From the NCBI GenBank assembly GCA_028285645.1, contig JANQOV010000068.1, forward strand, positions 24,733 through 88,732: DNA of 64,000 nucleotides, in the 5' to 3' direction. The translations under genes were made by a program, and so were the position numbers. The notes beneath the pieces are model-generated. The model did not search any database. It was not told the origin of the DNA and saw only the letters and a list, made by a program, of their open reading frames with translations. This document shows, piece after piece, positions 31,148-64,000 of this stretch. Each line of letters begins with the position of its first letter. Positions within the stretch are counted from its first letter, which is position 1. The stretch is from Hyphococcus sp. GTDB lineage: Bacteria; Pseudomonadota; Alphaproteobacteria; Caulobacterales; Parvularculaceae.

Positions 31148-31804
31148 ATGGATGCGCCCTGCCGACTTTATCTCATTACGCCGCCGCAGATCGAAGACGC
31201 CGCTGTGTTCAGCGACCAATTAAAAGCAGCGTTCGATGCAGGCGATGTCGCCTGCGTGCAATTAAGGCTGAAATCGCCCGACGGCGCATCTGCGCCTGAC
31301 GATGAAATCTTGCGCGTAGCGGAGGCCTTGGCGCCGCTCGCGAAAGCCCGCGACGTTGCTTTTTTGATCAATGACCGTCCCGACCTAGCGCTCAAGGCGG
31401 GCGCCGACGGCGTTCATGTGGGGCAGTCCGATGCGCCTTACGGTAAGGCGCGTGCGATGCTCGGGGATGACGCAACCATCGGCGTTACCTGTCACAATTC
31501 GAAACATCTTGGGCTCGATGCGGGCGAGGCGGGCGCTGACTACGTTGCCTTTGGCGCTTTCTTTCCAACCGATACGAAACAGACGCAGTATCGCGCAACG
31601 CCCGAATTGCTGGAATGGTGGTCCTTCGCGACCACGGTTCCGTCCGTTGCGATCGGCGGCGTAACGCCGGAAAATTGCGGCCCCCTCGTGCGCGCCGGGG
31701 CGGATTTTCTTGCTGTCTCTTCTGCGGTTTGGGCGCATCCCGAAGGGCCCGCCGCCGCCATTGCGGCCTTTGAAGCCGCCATCCTTAAGGCGCGGCGGCC
31801 TTAA
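31148..31804 (+). CDS. thiE: Thiamine-phosphate synthase
   Basis: A 218-residue TIM-barrel enzyme joining HMP-PP and the thiazole phosphate. CVQLRLKS, FLINDRPDLALKAGADGVHVGQSD, IGVTCHNS and AIGGVTPENC correspond to the family's conserved phosphate and Mg sites. No TPP riboswitch is visible upstream, unlike the gene at 63418. In-frame start at ATG 31148, just downstream of a TATATAGCGCGCC stretch. Confidence 0.92.
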   Translation: MDAPCRLYLITPPQIEDAAVFSDQLKAAFDAGDVACVQLRLKSPDGASAPDDEILRVAEALAPLAKARDVAFLINDRPDLALKAGADGVHVGQSDAPYGKARAMLGDDATIGVTCHNSKHLGLDAGEAGADYVAFGAFFPTDTKQTQYRATPELLEWWSFATTVPSVAIGGVTPENCGPLVRAGADFLAVSSAVWAHPEGPAAAIAAFEAAILKARRP

Positions 31805-63063: not shown

Positions 63064-63140
63064 AATTGTGAATTACTTTCACGCAAGCGGGCGCCGATTT
63101 TTCTTGAAATCGCAGTAGAATTGGTCCAAGCTTTTTTCTG

Positions 63141-63323
63141 TTCCGAGGGGCGTCCCGCCTGTCGCCAATGAACGACAGCTCGTGCGACGCGCACCTTCAA
63201 GGTCTGCCCGACAAACTCGATAAAGGGCGACCGACAAGCAATGCGCGCCAGGGAGCAATGGGCAAATGGGACTGAGATGAACCCTTCGAACCTGATCCGG
63301 GTCATGCCGGCGCAGGGACGGAG
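63141..63323 (+). promoter_or_regulatory. TPP riboswitch (THI-box) aptamer with long P3
   Basis: The 3' half contains CTGAGATGAACCC (63272 on), CCTGATCC and CATGCCGGCGCAGGGA, the most conserved TPP-binding core. The 5' half is GGGGCGTCCC (63147-63156), whose GTCCC pairs with GGGAC (63268-63272) as P2; P1 is TTCCG/CGGAG (63141-63145/63319-63323). The P3 arm is long (about 110 nt). It controls the lipoprotein gene at 63418. Confidence 0.88.
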
Positions 63324-63369
63324 CGATTGGGGCGCGGCATTCCGCAAAGGTGTTGCGTTTCAAAGTCGA

Positions 63370-63414
63370 TTTCCTCATCGCCGGATCCCAAAGGCTTAAG
63401 CTGCGGTGAGGAGA
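63370..63414 (+). promoter_or_regulatory. Shine-Dalgarno-sequestering hairpin (riboswitch expression platform)
   Basis: TTTCCTCATCG (63370-63380) can pair over 11 bp, with two G-U wobbles, with CGGTGAGGAGA (63404-63414), which contains the ribosome binding site GAGGAG of the gene starting at 63418. No T-run follows, so control is likely translational. Confidence 0.72.
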
Positions 63415-63417
63415 CCG

Positions 63418-64000
63418 ATGCCATTGTCAGGTTGCGTTAGGGTCAAATTAATAGAGAACCGTCACGGCTTCCGCCGTGTACGGTGTTTTTTGCTTTCCGC
63501 CATCCTGGCTGCTTTGAGCGCGGCCTGTGCGTCTCATGCGCAAGAAGGCGGCCAAGCCGGAAACAGCACTGAGGTAGCGGATGGCCCCTGCGCTGAGCAG
63601 GCCCATGACGGCGCCGACTATGTGGTCTGCCGCTTTCAGCCCGGCGCTGATATGCGGCTCTTTCTCAACAATGAAGCCGGCGAGCCTTACAAGCATTTCA
63701 ACTGGGTAAACGAGGCGCTTTCGGGCGCCGGCGAGCGCCTTGTCTTCGCCATGAACGCCGGCATGTATCACGAAGATAGATCGCCCGTGGGCTATTATCG
63801 CGGGGCCGGCAAAGACGTAACGCCTATCAACGACAATAACGGCCCCGGCAACTTTCACTTAAAGCCAAACGGGATTTTCTTCATTTTGGAAAACGGTTTT
63901 GCAGGCGTCGAGGAAACGAGTGTTTTCTTGATGACGAAGCGCCCGCCGCCGGCTTACGCCACCCAATCGGGCCCGATGTTAGTGATTGATGGGAGTTTGC
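63418..64000 (+). CDS. Phosphodiester glycosidase/DUF2233-like lipoprotein, 3' end outside window
   Basis: The frame from ATG 63418 is open to the window end (194 residues seen). GAGGAGA is the ribosome site. A basic start (NRHGFRRVR) precedes a lipoprotein signal FLLSAILAALSAAC. The domain has YVVCRFQPGADMRLF, LVFAMNAGMYHEDRSPVGYY and GPGNFHLKPNGIFF, matching the NAGPA/DUF2233 fold that cleaves GlcNAc-phosphodiesters or related links. It sits behind a TPP riboswitch. A direct thiamine role is not known for this family. Confidence 0.83.
   Translation, partial: MPLSGCVRVKLIENRHGFRRVRCFLLSAILAALSAACASHAQEGGQAGNSTEVADGPCAEQAHDGADYVVCRFQPGADMRLFLNNEAGEPYKHFNWVNEALSGAGERLVFAMNAGMYHEDRSPVGYYRGAGKDVTPINDNNGPGNFHLKPNGIFFILENGFAGVEETSVFLMTKRPPPAYATQSGPMLVIDGSL

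Follow-up and report, generated by a model that had tools for sequence, protein, structure and literature searches.

TPP riboswitches are textbook cis-acting vitamin sensors, and the one found near the end of the DNA analysed here (the window, a stretch of 64,000 nucleotides) raises the question of which gene, if any, it serves. A preliminary description had placed a THI box upstream of a NAGPA-like gene, and this THI box is real: the Rfam model RF00059 matches the forward strand at 63240-63336 with 49.7 bits (E 9e-9), and a covariance model of the full element, built from 31 sequences of which the window element is one, gives 183.9 bits. The RF00059 score is nevertheless lower than the gathering score of 54.3, which was curated for aptamers with a short P3, because the model puts the 5' half of the aptamer in the wrong place. 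As 49.7 bits fall short of that threshold, a scan of the whole window at the gathering score misses the THI box; a default Rfam threshold can thus hide an aptamer carrying an insert. The element is a variant of the TPP riboswitch and not a plain member of RF00059, since it scores below the cut-off with its 5' half misaligned. The sole RNA family above cut-off in the window is the serC leader RNA (RF00517, 54954-55006, forward strand, 50.3 bits).

In the alignment of relatives, the aptamer begins with GTTCCGAGGGGCGTCCC at 63140 and extends to 63324 on the forward strand, comprising a complete TPP core and a structured insert of ~110 nt in the P3 arm. The order P1 (GTTCCG/CGGAGC), P2, P3 (GTCCC/GGGAC), insert, CTGAGA and P4/P5 follows from the alignment, the covariance model and the RF00059 core match. 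The THI-box core letters of J2/3, P4 and P5 are kept, and the pairs of P1-P3 are formed in all or nearly all of the 31 sequences. Counted over P1, P2, P3, the insert helices and P4/P5, 97.7% of the alignment cells are paired, a value that falls to ~45% once the partners are slid by one column; seven pairs show double changes against 2.6 in shuffles, in a test that ignores shared ancestry.

The conserved P3 insert (63157-63267, forward strand) consists of a hairpin TGTCG/CGACA, a helix GCTC/GAGC, a helix GACGCGCA/TGCGCGCC and a variable tip. The GCTC/GAGC helix carries compensatory changes at three of its four pairs and reads GTTC/GAAC in several genomes. Loci L036, L037, L039, L040, L049, L051, L057 and L058 share an additional small hairpin of CATACTAACAAGGTTAG type on the 3' side of the insert. 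The 5' half of the aptamer can also fold differently. RNAalifold prefers a competing hairpin at 63150-63192 (forward strand), in which GCGTC (63150-63154) pairs with GACGC and TGTCG with CGACA, and which excludes P2 and P3. Both folds are near-isoenergetic (mean difference 0.4, sd 3.7 kcal/mol over 31 sequences with enforced pairs, energies that leave out ligand and tertiary contacts), and the 5' half by itself takes the competing fold in most sequences.

The element appears to have its own promoter at 63104-63132 on the forward strand, with TTGAAA (63104-63109), a 17-nt spacer and CAAGCT (63127-63132). CTTG is present 36-37 nt ahead of P1 in 33 of 33 loci and CANNNT follows after the 17-nt spacer in nearly all of them, and from a promoter conserved at such a fixed distance transcription should begin at P1. 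The support is comparative, since a generic sigma-70 consensus scan finds no promoter at 63104-63132. A possible intrinsic terminator (63458-63491, forward strand, stem ACCGTCACGGC/GCCGTGTACGGT followed by GTTTTTT) lies within a predicted N-terminal coding region; I rejected it as a conserved 3' end: beyond the window, only a few relatives have similar hairpins, and some terminator-like sites should arise by chance.

Behind the aptamer stands a second conserved hairpin, H2 (63365-63419, forward strand), with 16 pairs and the loop palindromes GGATCC and GCTTAAGC. It is present in 31 loci, at 2-85 nt from the aptamer; one of these (G031) was added to the alignment by eye after a regular expression had missed it. 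H2 was not found in G002 and G029. Together with the loop palindrome, 97.2% of its cells are paired, and nine pairs show double changes against 3.7 in shuffles, ancestry being ignored here too. The idea that H2 is a dispersed palindromic repeat was rejected, as it occurs in a single copy in the genome. Three candidate partners were rejected as well: pairing of the H2 loop GGATC with GATCC of the aptamer shows no covariation in the alignments read, pairing of the 5' arm with the 3' strand of P3 does not hold in a subclade with GAGCGAGC, and trans targets of the 5' arm share no initiation region in the loci read, although matches to GCGATGAGGAAA are commoner than those to the reversed pattern.

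An 11-bp hairpin hiding a ribosome site had been proposed at this position. The hairpin exists and covers a Shine-Dalgarno-like GAGGAG (63408-63413, forward strand, inside the 3' arm), but it is longer than was stated. The 3' arm is purine-rich in all loci with H2, and it drifts between A and G, while the 5' arm, UUUCCUCAUCGC, is nearly invariant. This disfavours masking of a ribosome site as the point of H2, for which the opposite pattern is expected; part of the asymmetry arises because U tolerates both A and G.

The loop of H2 shows a further regularity. Of the 15 distinct forms of its octamer, 6 are perfect palindromes (against a shuffled mean of 1.4, fraction 0.0002), and an unbiased scan of all aptamer and H2 columns ranks the octamer's two inner position pairs highest for covariation; one of these joins adjacent letters, which are unable to pair within a single molecule. 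Where the octamer departs from a palindrome, the change is in most cases G-U (8 of 13 distinct departures, p 0.0003), and this speaks for contact between RNA molecules more than for a DNA dyad. All of these loop tests ignore shared ancestry. The self-duplex energies of the loop are barely better than shuffled (mean z -0.6). The second self-complementary motif in the loop, GGATCC at ~63383-63388 (A2 columns 19-24), reads GGGCCC or AGGCCT in relatives and also shows covariation of adjacent letters.

Does H2 serve the gene behind it? In the window this is the 5' part of a gene for a NAGPA phosphodiester-glycosidase-like secreted protein (PF09992; 63418-64000, forward strand), within which the contig ends. 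The assignment holds: the fragment scores 27.1 bits in Pfam at a cut-off of 25, and a full-length relative 71.7 bits. With regard to the lipobox [LVI][ASTVI][GAS]C, the window has ALSAAC, with a serine at -3; the relatives G011 (LAGC) and G013 (IVGC) fit.

The strongest rival to the reading preferred below is an ordinary cis TPP riboswitch leader, in which H2 would mask the ribosome site of whichever gene comes next, the cargo being replaceable and usually an envelope or secreted protein; in the window, translation of NAGPA would be repressed when TPP is plentiful. I regard this as a serious possibility, short of a probable one. GAGGAG within H2 lies 4 nt ahead of the ATG at 63418, and the NAGPA frame runs without a stop as far back as H2 in several loci. 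The next gene is co-directional in about 20 loci, where the first gene is NAGPA in nine (G000, G004, G005, G006, G007, G011, G012, G014 and G023) and another envelope gene in about nine, namely an OMP barrel (G008, G019, G026), a DUF4136-like protein (G009, G017, G044) or a small secreted protein (G020, G025, G027). Against this explanation, the next gene is clearly convergent in seven loci across three genera, so that no co-directional gene is nearby to be controlled there, and yet H2 is intact in six of the seven. These convergent genes encode Trans_reg_C (winged-helix)/TPR (G003), an SSF symporter (G022), an amine oxidase (G029), YkuD (G032) and a DsrE family protein (G015, G018 and G047, Pfam-tested for G015). 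Moreover, no start codon 3' of H2 is conserved in relatives, and the arm with the Shine-Dalgarno-like letters is the less conserved one.

In about 19 loci a NAGPA gene lies at some place in the interval from the element to thiC, which makes it a common neighbour of the element and not its fixed target. The proposal of the preliminary description that the riboswitch exists to control this gene is therefore not borne out, and thiamine control of NAGPA as a conserved function is rejected as a general rule by gene order. That the riboswitch of relatives does not belong to this gene, an outcome which that description had itself named as counting against its proposal, largely holds. Its translational platform survives in the window, where GAGGAG in H2 adjoins the ATG, and fails in the relatives, where no start codon is kept. 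Translational control of NAGPA in the window genome is possible, but it is not the conserved feature; evolution seems to preserve the RNA itself.

The end of the window is exactly the end of its contig (C156). At the end of another contig, C9 (L004 11532-11768), the 3' part of a NAGPA gene is found, whose encoded C-terminal part is 77% identical to relative G013. Since the NAGPA gene is split over these two contig ends, the contigs very probably adjoin, and thiC would then follow within a few kb of the window's end. The order would then be long-P3 riboswitch, NAGPA, an amidohydrolase-like gene on the opposite strand, a second TPP riboswitch, a membrane protein gene and thiC. This second riboswitch, of ordinary form and with 63.2 bits, is the one other TPP match in the assembly and lies ahead of thiC on C9. 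The membrane protein gene (MDDLKDILLDGEEVLWSGKP..., L004 9022-9543) stands between the ordinary riboswitch and thiC, and several relatives have homologues at the same place. The suspicion that a thiamine operon continues beyond the window is thus half confirmed: thiC is nearby past the contig end, yet under its own riboswitch, and the first gene behind the element is variable or convergent and not one for thiamine synthesis or transport. For a role in the salvage of thiamine phosphates nothing speaks except closeness to thiC. Open reading frames with typical ThiE and ThiD sequence are located at 31148 and 51298, and that these lack a visible riboswitch is confirmed, the stretch 30500-52500 being free of RNA family matches.

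Wherever the element and thiC are on one contig, the element lies upstream on the same strand, at about 0.5-7 kb. A tandem arrangement is seen in locus L035 (G002), where ~0.5 kb and no gene separate the long-P3 element from the ordinary thiC riboswitch; H2 is missing from this locus. Two TPP riboswitches also occur in locus L066 (G045), from a genome that does not belong to the long-P3 group; the first of them has a short P3 and is accompanied by an H2-like hairpin ahead of the membrane protein gene, which possibly resembles the ancestral arrangement. The element could be conceived as a duplicated thi riboswitch that a rearrangement left before thiC and that now drifts as a leader with little function. 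The position upstream of thiC on the same strand, and the thiC riboswitch within 0.5 kb in one genome, would agree with this. However, the promoter, the insert and H2 show strong conservation and compensatory changes in several genera, and the architecture differs from that of ordinary thiC aptamers, so that I consider a leftover improbable. The least credible explanation is a variant aptamer with a changed ligand, such as a thiamine precursor or analogue, as the unusual insert and adjacent genes without a link to thiamine synthesis might suggest, but against which the retained core letters of J2/3, P4 and P5 speak.

The long form is found in 32 of 62 genomes of the Parvularculaceae, a family of marine bacteria, at 147-190 bits with the covariance model made here, all other matches of this model within the family having at most 78 bits. 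Two further genomes (G029 and G037) have the same element with a longer insert, measuring 276-278 nt in loci L059 and L063 against about 97-149 nt elsewhere. Samples of 398 genomes from the order and 385 from the class yielded no match outside the family (E 1e-18), which sets a bound on restriction to the family and does not prove it. A 23-base pattern searched in 84,980 genomes returned 31 records, several of which may overlap family genomes already counted; they include Marinicaulis, Amphiplicatus, Parvularculaceae MAGs and MAGs labelled only Alphaproteobacteria. At least one TPP match is present in 93 of 100 relatives, and two in most genomes of the window's genus, where the weaker of the two sits between a thioredoxin-like gene and thiC. 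This thioredoxin-like gene, usually adjoined by purA, precedes the element in every long-form locus. Among the open-access papers searched, none describes a bacterial TPP riboswitch of such form, and none mentions Parvularcula along with a riboswitch.

Comparison shows the aptamer architecture, the promoter, H2 and the absence of a fixed target gene. The reading that I favour, with a probability of roughly 0.48, is that of a clade-specific TPP-sensing RNA that works largely independently of the downstream gene, probably through H2. Stand-alone action seems most likely because the aptamer and H2 persist whichever gene follows, convergent genes included. What a stand-alone RNA should have, its own promoter and no dependent cis gene, is found by comparison (promoter in 33 of 33 loci, convergent gene in 7). 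Against this reading, the co-directional gene in ~20 loci and the frames open to H2 fit an ordinary leader, no consistent terminator ends the RNA, and no convincing conserved target of the H2 5' arm came out of a search.

TPP binding, switching and an action of H2 are what I infer for this RNA. Its transcription would begin at P1, from a promoter of its own, and it would have a normal TPP-binding core with a long and conserved P3 insert. In the emerging RNA, the 5' half may fold into the hairpin that precludes P2 and P3; with TPP the balance would shift to the aptamer fold, P3 being rebuilt with use of the insert, and the state of the aptamer would be relayed to the conserved H2 hairpin behind. 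The RNA would for the most part regulate on its own by way of H2, perhaps as a dimer formed via the palindromic loop, and a leader role for NAGPA in the window genome would be only incidental. A more specific form of this proposal, in which a stand-alone TPP RNA dimerises via the H2 loop, has its switch built into the P3 arm and lets the ligand control the effector hairpin or dimer instead of a cis gene, is unlikely to hold in full. If the favoured reading is true, a family-wide TPP RNA that has a conserved structural insert but lacks a fixed gene would extend riboswitch-controlled RNAs to TPP, and would be a compact system in which to study an aptamer that functions with no gene behind it; the cultured Marinicaulis flavus and Amphiplicatus metriothermophilus make the element testable.

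With the TPP riboswitches of RF00059 the element shares the THI-box core, the P1-P5 layout and the promoter-proximal 5' position, whereas it differs in its score below the Rfam cut-off, the structured P3 insert, the lack of P3a, the competing 5' hairpin and the lack of a fixed thiamine gene. Fungal TPP aptamers have an extended P3 that is variable in sequence and length (PMC5882874); a long P3 is thus common to both, but the insert described here is conserved in sequence with compensatory changes. Rli55 and EutX are ncRNAs controlled by a B12 riboswitch, and SreA is a dual-function SAM riboswitch that acts in trans (PMC8079631). As in these systems, the riboswitch would belong to an RNA acting independently of a cis gene and located close to a metabolically related locus; ligands and hosts are different. 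Functional RNA dimers formed via palindromic loops have been reviewed, for example the kissing loops of the retroviral DIS (PMC7357161), with which H2 has the self-complementary loop in common, although its putative dimer is suggested by covariation.
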